A stretch of DNA of 64,000 nucleotides. It comes from Crocinitomicaceae bacterium. Lineage in GTDB: Bacteria; Bacteroidota; Bacteroidia; Flavobacteriales_D; Parvicellaceae. Numbering within the stretch: position 1 is the first letter of the stretch; each line of letters begins with the position of its first letter. Of the stretch, positions 20,705 to 35,298 are shown one piece after another. The notes under the pieces are model-generated. The model was not told where the DNA came from. It did not search any database and was given only the letters and a program-made list of their open reading frames with translations. The position numbers and the translations under genes were made by a program. The DNA lies in the NCBI GenBank assembly GCA_002716065.1, contig PAZE01000006.1:53499-117498 (forward strand), written 5' to 3'.

Positions 20705-21639
20705 TGCTTCCAAATGATAAAATATATGTAGCGGGTCACAATGGAATGGTGGGTTCTGCAATAGTTAGAAAGCTGTCTTCACAAGGATATAATAATGTTA
20801 TTGTTAAAAATTCTTCAGAGCTAGATTTAAGAAATCAGCATCAAGTACGTTTATTTTTTGAAAAAAATAGACCGAGCTATGTTTTTCTTGCTGCGGCAAA
20901 AGTTGGTGGTATTATAGCTAATAACTCTTTTAAGGCAGATTTTATCTATGATAATTTGATGATTCAAACAAATGTCCTTAATTCTAGCCATCAAACAGGA
21001 GTTGATAAAGTTTTGTTTTTAGGTTCCTCTTGTATTTATCCAAAATTTGCGCGCCAACCTATTTCTGAATCTGAATTATTATCTGGAAGTCTTGAATCAA
21101 CTAATGATGCCTATGCAATTGCAAAAATTGCCGGTATTAAAATGTGTCAATCCTACAGAGAACAACATGGATTTAATTGTATTAGCGTTATGCCTACTAA
21201 TTTATATGGTCCAAATGATAATTACGATTTAAAAAATTCTCATGTTCTGCCCGCTTTAATTAGAAAGTTTCATGAAGCAAAAATTAACAAATTACCGTCT
21301 GTTGAGGTCTGGGGCTCCGGAAATCCTAAAAGAGAATTCCTTCATGTAGATGATTTGGCTGATGCTTGTTTGTTTTTAATGAATAAATACAATTCAAGTG
21401 AAATTATTAATGTTGGTACAGGACAAGATTTATCAATTAATGAATTAGCTTTACTTATTAAGAAGGTGACTGGTTACAAAGGTGAAATTTCTTATAACAC
21501 CAATAAACCTGATGGGACACCAAGAAAACTTTTAGATGTTTCCAAGTTGCAAGCTCTTGGATGGGAGCATAAAATAAATCTTTTAAAAGGAGTTAATAGT
21601 GTTTATGAAGAGTATAGTAAATTATACAAAGCTCAATAG
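20704..21639 (+). CDS. fcl: GDP-L-fucose synthase
   Basis: VAGHNGMVGSAIVRKL, GSSCIYPKFARQPI, YAIAKIAGIKMCQSYREQHG; ATG at 20704 overlaps the gmd stop. Confidence 0.95.
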   Translation: MLPNDKIYVAGHNGMVGSAIVRKLSSQGYNNVIVKNSSELDLRNQHQVRLFFEKNRPSYVFLAAAKVGGIIANNSFKADFIYDNLMIQTNVLNSSHQTGVDKVLFLGSSCIYPKFARQPISESELLSGSLESTNDAYAIAKIAGIKMCQSYREQHGFNCISVMPTNLYGPNDNYDLKNSHVLPALIRKFHEAKINKLPSVEVWGSGNPKREFLHVDDLADACLFLMNKYNSSEIINVGTGQDLSINELALLIKKVTGYKGEISYNTNKPDGTPRKLLDVSKLQALGWEHKINLLKGVNSVYEEYSKLYKAQ

Positions 21640-23179
21640 TAGAGGCTTAGTTTTATGTTGCTTCTTACTTTTTGTTGGAGCCTTTTTTGGTTCTACTTTT
21701 TGTCAAAACAAGAACTTCCCTTTCGAATTTAATTTTCAGCAACGTTTAACAAGTTCTATTAAGCATCGATCCATAAGGCCATATAATGAAGGTATTAATC
21801 AAATAAAGTACACCAACTTTTATGTTGATAGCGCTGAACGAGACTCCAGGTTTTATCGATTTGTTTTTAAAAAAAGCGTTTTAGATGTAGTCGATAACGA
21901 TGTAACTCTAAAAGCAGATCCGCTATTTAATTTTGCAGTTGGCAATTTATCTAACAGTAATCTTTATAGATATTTTACCAACTCTAGAGGTTTTAGGGTG
22001 CTTGCTGATTTAGGAAAAAAGGTTTCGTTTGAAACTAGATTTTACGAAAACCAGATGATTTATCCTGAGTATCTAGATGCTATAGCTGATCAAAGAGGCA
22101 TAGGAATTGGAATAGGTAGGTCAAAACCATTTAAAGATTATGGGCTTGATGCTGCAACAGCATCAGGATATATTTCATATTCACCAAATCAATTAATAAA
22201 TTTTCAATTTGGTCATGGAAGGCACTTTTTTGGAAATGGATATCGTTCTTTATTACTTAGTGATTATGCTCCTAATTACCCTTATTTTTCTGGACAATAT
22301 CTCTTTTTAAATGGTAAAATAGCCTATAAGCATATCACCGCATGGATGCACAGCAGAGATAGAACACCTGGTTCAGGAATTTCTGCCGAAACAATCTATA
22401 AAAGAAAAGCATCTTCTTTTAACCTACTTTCTTTTTCATTAAATGAGAATTTAGAGTTTAGTTTTTTTGAAGGTGTTATTCATAAATCATACGATGAAAA
22501 TTTAGGAACTATACATCCAGATTTTTCATTTTACTTGCCAGTTTTTGGATCATCTATTTTAGTTAATTACCAGGATTCAAAAATCAATCGTGTTTATGGA
22601 GCTTCTTTCTCATCATTATTTGTTAAAAAAATTGAGTTGTATGGACAGACAATGCTACATGAATCCGCAAATTTGGCCTTTCAATCTGGTATTAAATGGC
22701 TTGCACCATTTCAAATAAAAAATAGTTATTTGTTAATAGAATACAATTATATAAAAACATTTTCATATACTGTAGATAGCTCAAGAATTCTTCAAACCTA
22801 CACCCACAATGGGCATGAGCTTGCACATCCTTTAGGAAGTGGAGTGTCTGAGCTAATTATTAAAGGATATTTTGAGCACAAGAAATTTCTTCTTAATGTG
22901 CAATTTTCCAATTTTATAACTGAGTTTTCAGATGATAATCAAGGGGCTGATATTTTTCTACCCCATTCTTCATTAGCTACAGATTTGGTAAAACACAACA
23001 ATACATACTCTTTCATTGAATTAGGGTATTTATTGAATGTTCAAACGCAAATGAAAGTCTTTGTTAGCTTTACTAATAGAACAAATTTATCTGTAATTCA
23101 ACCTACTCAAAACTACCCATCAAAGTTCTTTTTTGTTGGCTTTAGAACCAACTTAATAAATAATTATTATGATCAATAA
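21605..23179 (+). CDS. Capsule assembly Wzi-like outer-membrane protein, paralogue 1
   Basis: ~524 aa with signal peptide, beta-barrel-like sequence and GHGRHFFGNGYRSLLLSDYAPNYPYF, shared with the protein at 24289..25809. Confidence 0.75.
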   Translation: MKSIVNYTKLNSRGLVLCCFLLFVGAFFGSTFCQNKNFPFEFNFQQRLTSSIKHRSIRPYNEGINQIKYTNFYVDSAERDSRFYRFVFKKSVLDVVDNDVTLKADPLFNFAVGNLSNSNLYRYFTNSRGFRVLADLGKKVSFETRFYENQMIYPEYLDAIADQRGIGIGIGRSKPFKDYGLDAATASGYISYSPNQLINFQFGHGRHFFGNGYRSLLLSDYAPNYPYFSGQYLFLNGKIAYKHITAWMHSRDRTPGSGISAETIYKRKASSFNLLSFSLNENLEFSFFEGVIHKSYDENLGTIHPDFSFYLPVFGSSILVNYQDSKINRVYGASFSSLFVKKIELYGQTMLHESANLAFQSGIKWLAPFQIKNSYLLIEYNYIKTFSYTVDSSRILQTYTHNGHELAHPLGSGVSELIIKGYFEHKKFLLNVQFSNFITEFSDDNQGADIFLPHSSLATDLVKHNNTYSFIELGYLLNVQTQMKVFVSFTNRTNLSVIQPTQNYPSKFFFVGFRTNLINNYYDQ

Positions 23180-23188
23180 CAATAAGAT

Positions 23189-24289
23189 ATGACAGGTAGT
23201 TTAATTCTTTTTTTGGGTTTTATAAGTGCATTTGTTGTTGTTTTTTTAGCAACACCATCTTTGATTAAAGTAGCTAAGCTTAAACACTTAGTGGATGAGC
23301 CAAAGGAACAGAGAAAGATGCATGGTTGGAGTATTCCTACAATTGGAGGAATAGTTATTTTTGGATCTGTTATTTTTTCTTACTCTCTTTGGTTCCCTGA
23401 AAAGTATAATCACATTCCTCATATGCTAACCAACTTTAAAGCCCTTACTGCTTGTTTAATCATTTTATTTTTTGTTGGAATAAAAGATGATATAATAGGA
23501 ACTGCTCCTGCAAAAAAGCTAATTGCACATTTTGTAGTTGGGTTTATTTTAGTAATAATGGCAGACATTAGAATTTATGATATGCATGGAATTTTTGGTG
23601 TTTATCAAAAATTGGATCTTTGGCAAAGTTATTTACTGTCCTTTTTTGTGTATATAGTTATAATTAATGCGGTTAATTTAATAGATGGGTTAGATGGGTT
23701 GGCTGCCGGAATAGGGTTGTTGGCTTCTGTTGCCTTTGGATTTATTTTTTACTATTCAGAAAATGTTCCGCTTTCCTTATTGGCATTTGTTCTTTCAGGT
23801 TCATTATTAGGGTTTTTAATTTTCAATTTTTCTCCAGCAAGAATATTTATGGGAGATTCTGGTTCTTTGCTAATTGGTTTGGTGCTTTGTGTTTTGGCTA
23901 TAAACTCTATAAGTGAAGATTATTCTAATTCACCTGATTGGTTGAGTTTGCTTAATAAACCTGTTCTTGCCATGTCTATTTTGGTTTATCCTTTAGTTGA
24001 TACAATTAGAGTTTTTAGTTTAAGGGTAATGAGAGGAAAATCTCCTCTTGTTGCAGATAAAAATCATATTCACCATCATCTTTCAAGAAGGGGGTTAGGT
24101 CACATAGGCTCAGATTTGTTACTTTATTTATACACCTTATTGATCGTTTCATCACAGGTGATATTGCAATTGTATTTTGAAGTTCAACAGCCAACTATTG
24201 TTTTTTTAGTTCAGCTTTTTATTTCTATTTCTATAATGTTACTTGTATTTATACTTATAAAACCTAAAGGAAAAAAGCTTGAAAATTAA
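23189..24289 (+). CDS. MraY/WecA-like undecaprenyl-phosphate glycosyltransferase
   Basis: 366 aa multi-TM; NAVNLIDGLDGLAAG, FMGDSGSLLIG, HIHHHLSRRGL. Confidence 0.93.
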   Translation: MTGSLILFLGFISAFVVVFLATPSLIKVAKLKHLVDEPKEQRKMHGWSIPTIGGIVIFGSVIFSYSLWFPEKYNHIPHMLTNFKALTACLIILFFVGIKDDIIGTAPAKKLIAHFVVGFILVIMADIRIYDMHGIFGVYQKLDLWQSYLLSFFVYIVIINAVNLIDGLDGLAAGIGLLASVAFGFIFYYSENVPLSLLAFVLSGSLLGFLIFNFSPARIFMGDSGSLLIGLVLCVLAINSISEDYSNSPDWLSLLNKPVLAMSILVYPLVDTIRVFSLRVMRGKSPLVADKNHIHHHLSRRGLGHIGSDLLLYLYTLLIVSSQVILQLYFEVQQPTIVFLVQLFISISIMLLVFILIKPKGKKLEN

Positions 24290-25809
24290 TGTTTAGAGTC
24301 TGTTTAAATATCGCTTTGTTATTATTGTTTTTTTCAATTAAAGGGCAGCATTATTTTTATGGCAATACTCAGCGTTTATATTCATTAGAGGCTATTGCAT
24401 ATCAGTCTGGTAACAATGCTCATTCAATAACAAAACCATATAATTTTCATGTTGAAAATAAGTGTTCTTTTTCTGATTCTATTTTTCAATTAGGTGTTTT
24501 TGGATATGGGTCAGACACCAATTCTTCAAGGGCGGTTATTCTTCCTGTTTTTGATATTGATTTTCAACTATCTCCAACAACCAACAACACATATTTGTCT
24601 AGTGGTTTTGGTGTTCAATGTGAGTTAAATTTTCATCCTAAGGTTTCATTTTTTTCACGTTATAGTTATCGTTCTGGGCAAGCTTCTGAATATATTCTAG
24701 CTTCAATTAATAATAGAGGAACTATTCAGGGATTAGGCTTTTTAGAAGATTCAAGTAATCAATTTAAAATTCATGAATTGGATTTGAATTTATCTGCGGC
24801 TTTAAATGATTATTTTTTAGTTTCTATCGGAAGAGGAAAAAATTTTTGGGGTGATGGTCATCGTTCTCTTTTGCTTTCAGACTTTGCTCCGTCTTATCCT
24901 TATTTAAGAATAGAGTCTGAGTTTTGGAAGGTTAAATACATTAATTTGTATTCTGTTCATAGAGACCATTTTTACAGTTCAGATAAACAAAATAAATTCT
25001 CTTCTTCACACTTATTAAGTTGGAATATTATTGACGGTCTTAATTTGTCTGTTTTTGAATCTGTTGTATGGTCTGGTAAAGACTCTCTAAACAGAAGAAA
25101 TTTTGACGTAAATTATCTTAACCCTATCATCTTTTTTAGACCTGTAGAATACAATATAGGTTCAGCAGATAATTCTTTTCTGGGAATGAATCTGAAAGCT
25201 ACTATTTTTAAAAAGCATGTTCTTTACTCCCAACTTATTTTAGATGAATTTTTACTTAAAGAAATAAGAGCTTCACAGGGATGGTGGGCTAATAAATATG
25301 GATTTCAGCTGGGATATAAATGTTTTGATATTTTTAAGCTAAAAGGATTGGGGGTTCAATTGGAGTACAACAGAGTAAGACCTTTTACTTATTCTCACGT
25401 TAGCTCTTTACAAAATTATGGCAACGCCAATCAATCATTAGCTCACCCATTGGAGTCAAATTTCAGTGAGATTTTAACTAGATTACTCTTTCAAAAAGAT
25501 AATTTTTCATGCCAATTGACCTATGCTTATCAACAGCATGGAGGCAACACTTTTGGCAATTACGGAGGAGATATGTTTTCCAGTTATTCTACTAGAATGG
25601 GTGATTACAATCATTCTGTTTTACAGGGAGATTTAATCCAACAACATTACTTAGGTTTAAACTTGTCCTATTTACTTATTGCTAAGTCGAACACTGCTTT
25701 TTTTAGCAGATTGGATTTTAGAAATTATTTAACTCTTCAAAAAGAAAACAATTTACTTTTTTCAATGGGGATAAGGTCTAATATTTGGAACACCTACTTA
25801 GATTATTAA
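24289..25809 (+). CDS. Capsule assembly Wzi-like outer-membrane protein, paralogue 2
   Basis: 506 aa; SIGRGKNFWGDGHRSLLLSDFAPSYPYL and LAHPLESNFSEIL parallel paralogue 1. Confidence 0.75.
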   Translation: MFRVCLNIALLLLFFSIKGQHYFYGNTQRLYSLEAIAYQSGNNAHSITKPYNFHVENKCSFSDSIFQLGVFGYGSDTNSSRAVILPVFDIDFQLSPTTNNTYLSSGFGVQCELNFHPKVSFFSRYSYRSGQASEYILASINNRGTIQGLGFLEDSSNQFKIHELDLNLSAALNDYFLVSIGRGKNFWGDGHRSLLLSDFAPSYPYLRIESEFWKVKYINLYSVHRDHFYSSDKQNKFSSSHLLSWNIIDGLNLSVFESVVWSGKDSLNRRNFDVNYLNPIIFFRPVEYNIGSADNSFLGMNLKATIFKKHVLYSQLILDEFLLKEIRASQGWWANKYGFQLGYKCFDIFKLKGLGVQLEYNRVRPFTYSHVSSLQNYGNANQSLAHPLESNFSEILTRLLFQKDNFSCQLTYAYQQHGGNTFGNYGGDMFSSYSTRMGDYNHSVLQGDLIQQHYLGLNLSYLLIAKSNTAFFSRLDFRNYLTLQKENNLLFSMGIRSNIWNTYLDY

Positions 25810-26736: not shown

Positions 26737-27996
26737 ATGAGTTTTTCTTCAAATACGAAGCCTAAAAGAACAGATAAAATAAATGTATACTCAAGCCTAG
26801 TATATGTTGGTGTTGTTTCAAGTATTATGTTTTTTGCTGGTTTAAGTAGTGCAGTATTGGTTAGAAAAATGGATAAGTTTTGGGTAAACATCCATCTCCC
26901 CGAATTTTTTATGTACAGCACATTGGTTATTTTAATTAGTAGTCTTACCCTAATTATTTCTTTTCGTGCCGCAAAAAAAGGAAATTTAAAACAGCTTAAA
27001 GGGTATCTTATTCTTTCATTAATCTTGGGGTTTAGTTTTTGTGTATTTCAATATTTTGGCTGGAAACAGTACTACAACAGTGGGAATGCTGTAAAATCTT
27101 TTATTACTTATGTATACGGTCAGTACGGTCAAACATATTATTTGACTAAAGATGGAGATAATATTTCCTACAATGGTAACAACTACGAGATTGATGGTGT
27201 TGAGTTGTCTTCCAAGGAGGTTGAACAAATGCAACGTTTTGCTTATCAAATCTGTGGGGATGATTATGGGTATAAGTCAAAAAAAATTGCGGTTAAAAAT
27301 TACAACAAACCTTTTGCTGTTCATAGATCTACTGATAACAAGCAAGTTCAGTTCAATAATGGTAGTCCTTTTATAGATAATGTTAATTTATCTGAAGTTG
27401 ATAGAGATGAACTTTTCAAGTTCGCTTTTGGAATTTATCAGAACAAACCTTTTTTCATGTTGGAGGGAGAATATGGAAAAGACTTTTCTTTTTCATTAAA
27501 TGGTGAGGATTTATATTACGATAAGAAGAGATTATTTTTCCCTGAAAGAAGACTTAATGATCAGGAAATAAAATCAATTGAAAAGACCGTATTTCAGGGA
27601 GGGCAGGAGTACATTGTTCGAAATGGAGAGGTAACAATAAATGGAGAAACTGTAGATCTTGCAGAGTTTGAAACTTATTTTATGCTAAATAATGGCATTG
27701 AAATTGAGCTTAAAAATGGTGTTTGGACTCAGCTTAGGCAAGAATTAAACTCTACACAGTATGGAGAGTTTTTTCAAACCACTAATGTTTCAAGTAGTTT
27801 TGTTTGGGTTTTAACGGTGGCACATTTTTTACATATTCTTCTAGGATTAACAATCTTGTTGGTAGTTTTTATTAGATCAACAATGAATAAATACAACGAA
27901 AATAATCAGGCTGGTCTAAAAGCAGGAAGTATATTTTGGCATTTTATTGGGCTTTTGTGGGTCTATTTATATGTATTTTTAGAATATATTAACTAA
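26737..27996 (+). CDS. Heme-copper oxidase subunit III-like protein with large soluble insertion
   Basis: Subunit III-like TM segments at both ends (YFGWKQYYNSGNAV ... SSSFVWVLTVAHFLHILLGLTILL...FWHFIGLLWVYLYVFLEYIN) separated by ~220 hydrophilic residues. Confidence 0.85.
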   Translation: MSFSSNTKPKRTDKINVYSSLVYVGVVSSIMFFAGLSSAVLVRKMDKFWVNIHLPEFFMYSTLVILISSLTLIISFRAAKKGNLKQLKGYLILSLILGFSFCVFQYFGWKQYYNSGNAVKSFITYVYGQYGQTYYLTKDGDNISYNGNNYEIDGVELSSKEVEQMQRFAYQICGDDYGYKSKKIAVKNYNKPFAVHRSTDNKQVQFNNGSPFIDNVNLSEVDRDELFKFAFGIYQNKPFFMLEGEYGKDFSFSLNGEDLYYDKKRLFFPERRLNDQEIKSIEKTVFQGGQEYIVRNGEVTINGETVDLAEFETYFMLNNGIEIELKNGVWTQLRQELNSTQYGEFFQTTNVSSSFVWVLTVAHFLHILLGLTILLVVFIRSTMNKYNENNQAGLKAGSIFWHFIGLLWVYLYVFLEYIN

Positions 27997-28020: not shown

Positions 28021-28836
28021 ATGGCACAGCACGCAGAAAATATTACCAAAGAAGAACTTTGGGGGGGGAATGGATCTCCATTTAGAATTTCTTATGGGAA
28101 ACAATGGATGTGGATGTTTTTGGTCTCCGATGCTCTAACTTTTGGATCCTTATTAACTGCCTATGGTTTTGCTCGTCATCAGGCTGATGCTTGGCCAATT
28201 GGGGAGGAAACATTTAATGCTATGCCTTTTTTAGGTAATGGCTATCCTTTGCTTTATGTGGCTTTAATGACTTTTATCCTTATTGTGAGTTCTGTAACAA
28301 TGGTACTTGCTGTTGAAGCAGGTCATCGATTAGATAAAAAGGGAGTAACTAAGTGGCTGCTGTTAACCGTAGTTGGTGGATTGTTTTTTGTTGGTTCTCA
28401 AGCTTGGGAATGGTATCACTTTATTCATGGTACTCACTATGGTAGTGTGTTAACTGCTGATGGTTGGGCTGTTGTAGATTATGTTAATGAAGGTAAAGAC
28501 TTAATTCTAAAGTTTGGTAGAGGTGTCATTGTTGATGGTGCTGCTGCGCAGTCCTTATTCGATGGTGCTACTGCAACAATGCAGGGAGCTAATTTAATTG
28601 AAAATGAATATGCTCCTGAGGTTCCTCAGTATGCAAATTTCTTTTTCTTCATTACAGGGTTTCATGGTTTTCACGTTTTCTCAGGTGTTGTTTTTAACTT
28701 GATTATTTTAATCAACGTTATTCGTGGTGTTTACGATAAAAGAGGACATTTTGAAATGGTTGAAAAAGTAGGGTTATACTGGCACTTTGTAGATTTAGTT
28801 TGGGTATTTGTGTTTACTTTTTTCTACCTTGTATAA
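28021..28836 (+). CDS. ctaE: Cytochrome c oxidase subunit III
   Basis: WMWMFLVSDALTFGSLL, QAWEWYHFIHG, TGFHGFHVFSGVVFNLI, GLYWHFVDLVWVFVFTFFYL. Confidence 0.93.
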   Translation: MAQHAENITKEELWGGNGSPFRISYGKQWMWMFLVSDALTFGSLLTAYGFARHQADAWPIGEETFNAMPFLGNGYPLLYVALMTFILIVSSVTMVLAVEAGHRLDKKGVTKWLLLTVVGGLFFVGSQAWEWYHFIHGTHYGSVLTADGWAVVDYVNEGKDLILKFGRGVIVDGAAAQSLFDGATATMQGANLIENEYAPEVPQYANFFFFITGFHGFHVFSGVVFNLIILINVIRGVYDKRGHFEMVEKVGLYWHFVDLVWVFVFTFFYLV

Positions 28837-28845
28837 TACGTTATT

Positions 28846-29247
28846 ATGGAAAGAGACGATTTAATTCACGACAATTTATACTCTTTATCAGCAAATCATG
28901 ATGAGGAACACGGTAAAGCAATTCGTAAAAAAATATGGCAAGTAACAGCCATTTTGACGGCAATTACTATTGTTGAGGTATGTACAGGTGCATTTATAAA
29001 GCAATATTATGAGGGTGTTGCCAATGAGTTTTGGTGGATAATTAAATGGTCTTTTATTATCCTAACTGTTGTTAAGGCCGCGTATATTGTTCTTGTTTTC
29101 ATGCACTTGGGTGATGAAAGAAAGAACTTTAAATGGGTTATACTAGGGCCATATATTTTATTTATTGCATATTTAATTTTCATTTGTCTTTCTGAAGCCT
29201 CCTATTGGAACGAAGTATTTAATGGTCCGGGCAGTATAACTCCATGA
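28846..29247 (+). CDS. Cytochrome c oxidase subunit IV-like family protein
   Basis: 133 aa with 3 TM segments; IWQVTAILTAITIVEVCTGAF...VFMHLGDERKNFKWVIL. Confidence 0.85.
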   Translation: MERDDLIHDNLYSLSANHDEEHGKAIRKKIWQVTAILTAITIVEVCTGAFIKQYYEGVANEFWWIIKWSFIILTVVKAAYIVLVFMHLGDERKNFKWVILGPYILFIAYLIFICLSEASYWNEVFNGPGSITP

Positions 29248-29909
29248 TAAATAATTTAAAATTTCTTATCCCCAAGAAAGGTGCAATAATACTTTCTTCA
29301 ATATTAATTTTTTTTCTTGCGCTTATTTTTTTCTTAACCAAAGGAGATCCTGTATTTCCTCCTTTACCAACGTTTGCTAAAGTTGAAAAAGAAGTTTCTT
29401 TTAAAAATGAAAATGGAAAAATTATTACTAAAAAAGATTTAGAGGGTAAAATACTCTTGGTAAATTATTTATCTACAACCTGTCCTTTAAATTTTCCAAA
29501 AGAATGCCCTATTAGTTTTGGAGTGTTTAAATTTTTCATTTACAATCAGCTAGTAGATAATACGGGGTTTAAAGACGTTAGAGTAGTTTCTGTTTTTTTA
29601 GACTCAACTGATTCAGAAACCTTTTCAAAAAAAATTAAAGAATTTAGAGCATATCATCAGTTAGATTCTGAAAAATGGATCTTTGTTCAAGGAAATGAAA
29701 ACCCATTTTTTGACGTGAATCTATCTCAGGGAAATCCATGGAATAAAAAGGACACTATTTATGGATACGAAAAAGAGGCCTACATTATGACCTTAATGAT
29801 TGATAAAGAATTTAACGTAAGAGGAAAATACATGACTATATTGGCTCCTGAAGTTAGAAGAATTACTAAGGAGATTAGCTTACTTATAAGGGAGGAAAAT
29901 GAAAATTAG
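29244..29909 (+). CDS. Divergent SCO/thioredoxin-fold membrane-anchored protein
   Basis: N-terminal TM then ILLVNYLSTTCPLNFPKECPISF...VSVFLDSTDS; resembles SCO but lacks the CxxxC spacing. Confidence 0.65.
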   Translation: MINNLKFLIPKKGAIILSSILIFFLALIFFLTKGDPVFPPLPTFAKVEKEVSFKNENGKIITKKDLEGKILLVNYLSTTCPLNFPKECPISFGVFKFFIYNQLVDNTGFKDVRVVSVFLDSTDSETFSKKIKEFRAYHQLDSEKWIFVQGNENPFFDVNLSQGNPWNKKDTIYGYEKEAYIMTLMIDKEFNVRGKYMTILAPEVRRITKEISLLIREENEN

Positions 29910-30513
29910 CGGCTTATTTTTTCTAATGCTTTTTTGTTTTTCGAGTTGTGTTTCAATTACTGAAAAACCGTTACCTATTTATGGATATAAAGAGTTTGAT
30001 GATCTTCAAGAAAACGACACCTTATATCACACTATACCAAAATGGTCCTTTGTAAATCAATATGGAGAACAGGTTAACTCTTCATTTTACGAAGGAGAAA
30101 TTTACGTTGTTTATTTCTTTTTTAGCCATTGTCCTACTATCTGTCCAGCTATGACCATGAACATGGTTAAGCTACAGCAACAAACCACAGCATTGGATAT
30201 TAAATTTCTGTCTTTTACTGTAGACCCCAAAAAAGATTCTTCTGAAAGGCTGTTCTGGTATCAGGACGCTTTTGGAATTAATGGTGAAAATTGGAATTTG
30301 CTAACTGGAAATCAAAACGCTATATATTCTCTAGGAGTTAATGGTTTTTTAGTTCCTAATCAAGAGGATGCTCTTGCTCCTGGGGGGTTTTTACATTCAG
30401 AAAAAATTATGCTTATTGATTCTAAGGGAAGAATTAGAGGATATTACGATGGAACTGATGAAGATCAAGTAGCAGTTATCTTAAATGATATTTCAAGGTT
30501 AAAACAAGAATAA
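29899..30513 (+). CDS. SCO1/SenC family copper chaperone
   Basis: YVVYFFFSHCPTICPAMTMNM, FLSFTVDPKKDS, FLHSEKIMLIDSKGRIRGYYDG. Confidence 0.93.
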   Translation: MKISGLFFLMLFCFSSCVSITEKPLPIYGYKEFDDLQENDTLYHTIPKWSFVNQYGEQVNSSFYEGEIYVVYFFFSHCPTICPAMTMNMVKLQQQTTALDIKFLSFTVDPKKDSSERLFWYQDAFGINGENWNLLTGNQNAIYSLGVNGFLVPNQEDALAPGGFLHSEKIMLIDSKGRIRGYYDGTDEDQVAVILNDISRLKQE

Positions 30514-31573: not shown

Positions 31574-32575
31574 TTGAAAAAAAGTATAGAAGATGTAGTT
31601 AAAGATAGAATTTTGATTCTTGATGGAGCAATGGGGACCATGATTCAGCAGTACTCTTTATCTGAAGAGGATTTTAGAAAAGAGTGGTTTGAAGAGCATA
31701 ATCAACCATTAAAAGGAAATAATGATTTACTTTCATTAACAAGGCCAGATATTATTAAGGCTATTCATCGTGCATATTTTGAAGCAGGGGCAGACATTGT
31801 TGAAACCAACACTTTTTCAGGAACTTCCATTGCTCAGGCAGATTATGCATTAGAAAAATATGCGTATGAAATTAATTTTCATGGAGCAAAGATTGCAGCT
31901 GAAGTTGCAGCTGAATTTTCTGCCAATGAGCCTGATAAACCTAGATATGTAGCTGGATCTATTGGACCTACAAACAGAACTTCCTCAATATCTCCTGATG
32001 TTAATGATCCTGGTTATAGAAATGTTACTTTTGATGAGCTAAATCTTGCTTATCAACAGCAAATTAAAGGACTAATTGAAGGAGGTTCAGATTTATTATT
32101 AATTGAAACCATTTTTGATACTTTAAATGCCAAGGCTGCACTTTTTGCTATTCAGGAAGTATTTAATGAGTTGAATACTAAGCTACCCGTCATGGTTTCA
32201 GGAACCATTACTGATGCTAGCGGAAGAACACTTACGGGACAAACAACTGAAGCTTTTCTTGTTTCTTTATCTCATTATTCACTGTTTAGTATTGGCTTAA
32301 ATTGTGCTTTAGGGGCTGATGATATGCGACCATACTTAAAAACGCTTTCTAAAAGAAGTGAATTTTTAACAAGTGCTCATCCTAATGCAGGCCTGCCAAA
32401 TGAGTTTGGAGAGTATGATGAAACACCTGAAATGATGGTTGCTCAAATAAAGAAATTTTTAGATGATGGGTTAATTAATATTGTTGGGGGGTGTTGTGGG
32501 ACTACACCTGATCATATTCGTGCTATTGCAGCTATTGCCAAGGATTATTCTCCAAGAAAATTAAAAAATAATTAA
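31574..32575 (+). CDS. metH: Homocysteine S-methyltransferase domain (N-terminal module of split MetH)
   Basis: [21 protein letters not shown]...; [28 protein letters not shown] zinc-site motif; TTG start. Confidence 0.93.
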
Positions 32576-32580
32576 TTTAT

Positions 32581-35298
32581 ATGAGTCTTCATCCAGAATA
32601 TTCAGGCAATTACATCTATAAGTGGACTGCTCTTCCTCCAATGAAACTGAGTGGTTTGGAACCATTGGTCGTTTCTGCCGATGTTAATTTTATAAATATT
32701 GGGGAAAGAACAAATGTTACTGGTTCTAAAAAGTTTTTGCGATTAATCAAGGAGGGAAGCTTTGAAGAAGCATTAGACGTTGCTAGAAATCAGGTTGAGG
32801 GAGGAGCACAGATTATTGACATTAACATGGATGAAGGCCTTTTGGATGGTGTTGAGTCGATAAAAAAGTTTTTAAACTTAATTGCTGCTGAACCTGACAT
32901 TTCCAGAGTTCCTGTAATGATAGATTCATCTAAATGGGAGATTATTGAAGCTGGATTGCAATGCATTCAGGGGAAGGGAGTGGTGAATTCTATTTCTTTG
33001 AAATCTGGTGAGGAAGAATTTATTTTTCAAGCTAAAAAAATTAAGCAATATGGTGCAGCTGTTATAATTATGGCCTTTGATGAAAATGGGCAGGCAGATA
33101 CCTATAAAAGGAGAATTGATATTTGTAAAAGATCCTATGATATTCTAGTAGAAAAAGTAAACTTCCCTAAACAAGATATTATTTTTGATCCTAATATTTT
33201 TCCTGTTGCTACTGGAATTGAAGAGCACAATAACAATGCAATGGATTTTTTCTTGGCCACAAGATGGATTAGAGAAAATCTACCAGGAGCACATGTTAGT
33301 GGTGGAGTGAGTAACGTATCTTTTTCTTTTAGGGGAAATAATGCTGTTCGTGAGGCAATGCACTCTGCCTTTTTATATCATGCTATTAACGAAGGAATGG
33401 ATATGGGTATAGTTAATCCTACTATGCTTGAAGTTTACGATAGTATTCCTAAAGATTTACTGGATAAAGTAGAGGATGTGCTTTTAAATAGAAGGGATGA
33501 TGCAACAGAGCGGTTGTTGGATTTTGCTGAGTCGGTTAAAGGTGAATCTAAAAAGGAGGATAAAGTTTTAGAGTGGAGAGCATTTTCATTAGAAAAAAAG
33601 ATAGAGCATGCACTTGTTAAAGGAATTACGGAATTCATTGAAGAGGATACTGAAGAGGCTAGAATAAATAGTGCCAAGCCATTAGAAGTTATTGAGGGCC
33701 CTCTTATGAGTGGAATGAATGTGGTAGGTGACTTATTTGGTTCTGGTAAAATGTTTCTTCCACAAGTTGTTAAATCTGCCAGGGTAATGAAAAAAGCTGT
33801 TGCTTACTTAACCCCTTTTATTGAAAAGGAAAAGGGAGGGGGCAAAGTTCAAAGTAATGGTAAAATTATTATGGCTACTGTGAAGGGTGATGTTCACGAT
33901 ATTGGTAAAAATATTGTTGGTGTTGTTTTAGGTTGTAATAATTTTGAAATTATTGATTTGGGTGTTATGGTTCCTGCCAATAAAATTATTGATGCAGCTG
34001 TTCAAGAGAATGCAGATATTATTGGTCTTAGCGGTTTAATAACACCCTCATTAGACGAAATGATTGATGTTGCTCGAGAAATGACCAAAAGAAAGGTGCA
34101 TTTGCCTTTGCTGATTGGTGGGGCTACAACGTCTAAAGTTCATACAGCTGTTAAAATTGAACAAGAGCTTACCGGAAGTCAGGCTGTTCATGTATTAGAC
34201 GCTTCTAGATCAGTTACAGTAGTTAATAGTTTATTAGGCGATAAAAAGCTTAATTACCAGAATGAAATAAAACAGGACTACCAACGCATAAGAGATCAGT
34301 ATGTTGGCAGAAATAAGCAAAAACCATTTTTGAGCATAAAAAAGGCAAGAGAGAATAGGTTACAATTGCAGTGGGAAAATTACTCTCCAGTTGTCCCATT
34401 AAAAATGGGAATACATTTAATCGATAAATTGGATTTAAATATCCTTTCCAATTATATTGATTGGACTCCTTTTTTTCTTACTTGGGAGCTTCACGGAAGG
34501 TTTCCAAAACTATTAAAGGATAAAGTGATTGGAGAAGAAGCCACAAATTTATATGCTGACGCTACTCAAATGCTTAGTAAAATAATCAATGAAGGTTGGC
34601 TTGAAGCGAAAGCAGTATATGGCTTTTGGAAAGCCAATTCAACAGCTAAAGATGAAATAAATATCTATGATTCTGATGATAAATTACTTGCTGTTTCTCA
34701 AAGTTTACGTCAGCAAAATAAAAAAGCTACTGGAACTTTTAACCTTAGTCTTTCAGATTATATTGCACCAGAGGCTTCTAAAAAAGAGGATTATATTGGT
34801 GCTTTTGCTGTTACTGCAGGATTAAAAATTGAAAAGAAAATCACTGAATTTGAAGAGGCTTTAGATGATTATAATTCTATACTGCTTAAAGCTTTAGCTG
34901 ATCGATTAGCTGAGGCTGCTGCCGAATATCTTCATGAAAAAGTTCGAAAAGAATACTGGGGGTATTCTAAAAATGAAAAGTTTGACAATCAAGAGCTTAT
35001 AAGAGAAAAGTACAAAGGTATTCGGCCTGCCCCTGGATATCCTGCATGTCCTGATCATACGGAAAAGCAAACTATTTTTAAGCTATTAAATGTAACTCAA
35101 CTCACAGGAATTTCACTTACTGAATCTTTAGCAATGCTTCCTGCAGCATCTGTTTCTGGATGGTATTTTGCTCATCCTGAAGCTAAGTATTTTGGACTAG
35201 GTAAAATAAAAATGGACCAGGTAGAAGATATTGCCAAAAGAAAGGGAGTAAGCCTAGATCAAATGAAAAAGTGGCTATCACCAAATATTATTGATTAG
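32581..35298 (+). CDS. metH: Methionine synthase, pterin-, B12- and activation-domain module (split MetH)
   Basis: [17 protein letters not shown]; cobalamin motif [18 protein letters not shown]-terminal activation domain ([15 protein letters not shown]). Confidence 0.95.

Follow-up and report, generated by a model that had tools for sequence, protein, structure and literature searches.

The window, which is the whole 64,000-nucleotide stretch of DNA analysed here, carries two adjacent genes of the cytochrome oxidase subunit III (CoxIII) family on its plus strand. Gene A (26737..27996, + strand) encodes a non-canonical CoxIII paralogue of 419 amino acids, recognised by Pfam COX3 and AlphaFold2, with five predicted transmembrane (TM) helices and a putatively periplasmic insert. 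Gene B (28021..28836, + strand) encodes a canonical five-helix subunit III with Asp37. The operon of gene A also includes ctaB and two SCO-like genes (29244-30513). Just upstream of ctaB, a gene for a WecA-like membrane glycosyltransferase (23189-24289) lies between the genes for two similar outer-membrane-type proteins (21599-23179 and 24289-25809), which have a common motif like GDGxRSLLLSDxAPxYPY. On the other side of the oxidase genes, a MetH-like methionine synthase is split into two adjacent genes (31574-32575 and 32581-35298), the homocysteine-binding part and the remainder.

Gene A passes the family cut-off of Pfam COX3 (PF00510) with 45.3 bits against a cut-off of 23.8. The match covers residues 348-417, which contain TM helices 4-5 (residues 351-417; 27787..27987, + strand), whereas TM helices 1-3 (residues 11-114; 26767..27078, + strand) are seen as helices in the AlphaFold2 model. 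Bacterial subunit III models match both TM parts, with scores below their equivalog cut-offs. The AlphaFold2 model, calculated from a 31-sequence alignment, has a mean pLDDT of 88.5 and places three TM helices before and two after residues 117-352, and its TM bundle resembles CtaE of C. glutamicum in Foldseek (TMt 0.72, probability 1.00, E only 0.022). Canonical subunit III has an acidic residue (Glu or Asp) in the first of the five core helices; this residue is missing in the relatives of gene A, which have Ile, Ser, Val or Met at position 29 and lack any acidic residue in positions 24-35. It is strongly supported that gene A is a diverged CoxIII paralogue that has kept the five-helix fold and lacks the canonical acidic TM residue. 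Its positive charges cluster at the N-terminus and in the helix 2-3 loop, and the helix 4-5 loop carries two more. Following the positive-inside rule, this distribution places the insert in the periplasm, and together with homology it predicts that the insert loop faces the electron-entry side of the oxidase.

The insert is hydrophilic, lies between TM3 and TM4 and, as defined by alignment with insert-free and one-unit relatives, comprises the 236 residues 117-352 (27085..27792, + strand). The original prediction, made from the sequence, had correctly recognised the open reading frame, the TM flanks and the hydrophilic insert at this place in a CoxIII-like protein; it located the insert well and made it slightly too short, at about 220 residues (27100-27763). 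It had further proposed a soluble internal repeat, and here the family insert, aligned with itself profile against profile, shows off-diagonal matches at E 6.5e-7 to 1.2e-5, compared with E 0.25-0.84 in 20 column shuffles and E 0.086 for the forward against the reversed profile. The insert is confirmed as a true repeat, beyond chance. A profile built from one-unit relatives alone matches the window insert twice independently, at positions 7-48 (iE 3e-7) and 126-157 (iE 5e-9); the other unit positions are weakly matched too, and the register is identical across about 25 long-form relatives.

In the AlphaFold2 model, the insert folds into five successive modules, each with four strands followed by a helix, with block means of pLDDT between 78 and 96 except in the entry linker (residues 121-130). 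The four units described originally are the first four of these modules, U1-U4, and the fifth had been missed. The two strong hits of the one-unit profile belong to U1 (residues about 127-176; 27115..27264, + strand) and U3 (residues 243-281; 27463..27579, + strand), which also match each other (E 4.9e-9), and U3 is the counterpart of the single unit in one-unit relatives (E 2.7e-13). U2 (residues about 189-242; 27301..27462, + strand) matches U1 at E 6.1e-8. All three are modelled as strands and a helix, and by these profile comparisons U1-U3 are clearly homologous. The module generally measures about 45-55 amino acids; U4 (residues 282-311; 27580..27669, + strand) and U5 (residues 312-348; 27670..27780, + strand; sequence LNNGIEIELKNGVWTQLRQELNSTQYGEF) are short, with only 30-37 amino acids, and are linked to U1-U3 by the strand and helix order of the predicted fold and by weak profile scores (best unit comparisons of E 1.6e-4 and E 1.3e-3, respectively).

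Of the two findings that the original prediction had named as refuting it, a lack of repeat signal and a described standard domain, neither came up: the repeat signal is present, and the module is undescribed in the Pfam, NCBIfam, PDB and fold searches made. A Pfam scan of 23 inserts returned isolated chance-level matches only, NCBIfam gave no match to the insert, a search of PDB sequences with the insert profile yielded nothing below E 0.26, and a fold search of the PDB and of viral models left the insert unmatched. Literature searches, the coverage of which excludes most subscription papers, found it described nowhere. A survey of 99 genomes from the class gave 20 unit matches, of which 19 fall in the gene A protein and the remaining one is marginal (E 0.0037). 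A redox or metal domain is ruled out for the insert, which has no CxxCH motif, one Cys and one His.

How did five modules arise? The gene A protein of named Bacteroidota genomes (Chitinophagales, Saprospirales, Cytophagales and one Flavobacteriaceae MAG) mostly has 188-208 amino acids and no insert. Among relatives of the same order, gene A sizes are discrete. Insert lengths over the insert-free baseline cluster at +47-67, +103-105, +159-172 and +225-234, giving size classes without insert and with one (+48 amino acids), two (+104), three (+160) or five modules (+227); L051, which lies in between (+137), and L179, which is half-length, are the exceptions. The shortest inserts, of 57-70 amino acids, contain just one unit, which follows the pattern GxYGxDFxIxYxGxxLxxxxGxYY. 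Within the family of the window, intact gene A copies have five units, except for genome G007 with three. Three units are found in Crocinitomicaceae and kin, including Lishizhenia tianjinensis, two in family f13 and one in many other families. An apparent 611-amino-acid form of gene A in genome G214 was rejected, as its extra length comes only from an open frame that runs on upstream of a normal one-unit protein. In genome G024 gene A (L054) is broken: a frame shift lies inside the insert and TM4-TM5 are in another frame, due to either an error or decay.

Mapped on the gene B tree, the unit-number states need 11 changes, compared with 63.4 when labels are shuffled; in this scoring, relatives without an automatic insert length were counted as insert-free, L132 was set by hand and the automatic length of L013 is off. 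Gain of the module in part of the Bacteroidota, followed by tandem multiplication to two, three and five copies by family, is strongly supported. Because several forks of the gene B tree are unsupported, the succession 0 to 1 to 3 to 5 should be taken as the simplest course and not as a proven order. The insert has a low dN/dS in close pairs (dN 0.025 and dS 0.43 for L002/L003; 0.035 and 0.48 for L012/L015), which indicates that it is under purifying selection, and the mean identity within the family is 0.555 for U3 versus 0.507-0.537 for the TM helices. We are highly confident of the anatomy of the insert and of its evolutionary series.

The canonical subunit III encoded by gene B (CyoC E 1.3e-27; Foldseek match to bo3 subunit III, E 6.8e-7) has relatives in which the acidic TM residue Asp37 is invariant. 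It was noted originally that this next gene has an extra segment at the corresponding position, and alignment and model indeed show 69 amino acids in the equivalent TM3-TM4 loop (28432..28638, + strand). In relatives of gene B this insert measures 25-226 amino acids; the longest one seen (L032:2777-4069, genome G046) includes a His-rich stretch, HHDAGHGHGHGEDH. The gene B insert is modelled with strands at 142-145, 148-155, 160-165 and 170-172 and a helix at 173-181 (pLDDT 85-95), which is the strand and helix order of the gene A module; homology of the two inserts was not detected by hhalign (probability at most 8%). As the inserts are on different subunits, the common accessory site that had been suggested holds only as an equivalent loop. 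A third use of this loop is found in a CoxIII paralogue of the Cytophagaceae MAG Prado077 (L100:3483-4484), which has a PA14 domain between TM3 and TM4 (Pfam E 5e-20), a domain to which the window protein is unmatched in Pfam. The TM3-TM4 loop is used repeatedly for extra segments, namely the gene A array, the gene B insert and the PA14 domain.

The genome also encodes alternative complex III (ACIII). The genes actA-F, coxM and coxN lie on the contig of gene A (G000:C6:25603-37903); ActA has six CxxCH motifs, and subunit II has a CuA motif but lacks heme c, as in the F. johnsoniae type. Of 158 cases, 144 have both CoxIII-like genes and ActD, 9 have neither and 5 are discordant, a co-occurrence that may reflect aerobic respiration only. 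In F. johnsoniae, published work attributes the ACIII-oxidase contact to oxidase subunit III (PMC8361435), which may be either the A-type or the B-type paralogue. ACIII is the sole electron source for that aa3 oxidase (PMC8552683), and the architecture of the supercomplex differs between F. johnsoniae and R. marinus (PMC5928083). Two of the contig's genes outside the window have peculiarities of their own: coxM (subunit II; L170:12855-14113, about G000:C6 34854-36112) is split over two overlapping frames, and the shift between them, near L170:13240, is probably an assembly error of one base; ActF (L170:10975-12834) contains, close to its N-terminus, an extended repetitive stretch rich in His, Asp, Glu and Ser that is possibly metal-binding.

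What could such an array do on a subunit whose core is highly conserved? We propose that it would have no redox function and would serve as a surface for docking and spacing, keeping the aa3 oxidase attached to its partner within an electron-transfer supercomplex. This partner is most plausibly ACIII, whose ActA cytochrome domain is mobile. The number of modules would be fitted to the lineage-specific geometry of the supercomplex, and the smaller module on the canonical subunit III of gene B would act likewise. We assign a probability of about 0.4 to the docking role, and the same to the explanation as a whole, in which a multiplied periplasmic module array on a CoxIII paralogue docks the oxidase in a supercomplex with ACIII. 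In its favor we count the repeat statistics, the confident five-module model, the discrete sizes with few changes on the tree, the low dN/dS of the insert and the lack of a cofactor motif, as well as the ACIII genes on the contig, the co-occurrence with ActD, the contact described in the literature and the PA14 domain in the same loop. The occurrence of related families with none, one, two and three modules, versus five here, suggests that the array probably arose as a docking surface that can be adjusted. Most ACIII-bearing Bacteroidota are without an insert in gene A, so the array is unnecessary for the supercomplex as such. The weak sequence evidence for U4 and U5 likewise speaks against the explanation. 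A bolder version, in which module copy number (0, 1, 2, 3, 5) acts as a respiratory "ruler" that sets the geometry for the aa3 oxidase receiving mobile ActA, is at present speculative and in our view improbable; if it is true, supercomplex architecture evolves through module addition. An acidic cytochrome-binding face was considered as well and left out of the explanation, since the mild acidity of the window insert (25 K+R, 35 D+E) is not shared consistently by three-unit forms.

The array could also dock a partner other than ACIII. Candidates are assembly factors, copper chaperones, to which the two SCO-like genes would point, soluble cytochromes and partners in the cell envelope. The ctaB gene and the two SCO-like genes that share the operon of gene A would fit such a role, CuA assembly also occurs on the periplasmic side, and a conserved and constrained insert is compatible with any of these partners. 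However, SCO-like genes are a general feature of such operons, and no partner gene that tracks module number was found, leaving this a serious but somewhat unlikely alternative. We find it unlikely that the array is partnerless, that is, a structural cap or stabilizer of the CoxIII paralogue or a lineage-specific decoration, kept because it must fold. A constrained fold by itself gives a low dN/dS, the same loop accommodates an unrelated PA14 domain, families differ greatly and most Bacteroidota do without the insert, all of which would suit such a decoration; nonetheless, copy number is stable within families and the conservation of U3 equals that of the TM helices, above the expectation for folding only. 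An illusory repeat or an assembly or annotation artefact, which the high degeneracy of the units by eye might suggest (17% identity between U1 and U3 of the window), is refuted by the shuffle and reversal controls, by dozens of independent genomes in which this frame is likewise uninterrupted and by the confident AlphaFold2 model.

Docking of the oxidase to ACIII remains our preferred reading. By family, the CoxIII paralogue forms a natural series in which the copy number of the undescribed periplasmic module ranges from 0 to 5. This makes the role of subunit III in oxidase-ACIII association, and that of array length in electron delivery, testable in native bacteria.

Finally, the array can be compared with known systems. 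Similar to five-helix subunit III proteins (CyoC, actinobacterial CtaE, PF00510), gene A has five TM helices, the conserved TM4-TM5 motifs and a position in a cox operon; it differs from them in its 236-amino-acid repeat insert, in the absent canonical acidic residue and in scores below the equivalog cut-offs. Mitochondrial Cox3 of the ciliate Tetrahymena (PDB 7w5z, 563 modelled residues) is likewise enlarged by lineage-specific sequence, but this is another organism, the enlargement is without a demonstrated tandem module, and the match to gene A runs through the TM part only. With the choline-binding-type beta-hairpin repeats at the C-terminus of clostridial toxins the module shares a local 20-residue hairpin likeness with I-Y-G-L-G-YY spacing; as the match covers 20 of 46 positions, leaves out the helix and gives single matches of i-E 0.11 or worse, and Pfam gives no match, we read this likeness as convergence. 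The PA14-bearing paralogue of Prado077 presents a soluble domain at the same loop of the same protein, although this domain is present only once and has a well-described fold unrelated to the module. The subunit III of the F. johnsoniae ACIII-aa3 supercomplex (PMC8361435) differs in that the sole Flavobacteriaceae relative seen (L116, gene A of 194 amino acids) is without the insert, but it belongs to the same phylum, has five helices and, as here, has as its partner an ACIII with a six-heme ActA.
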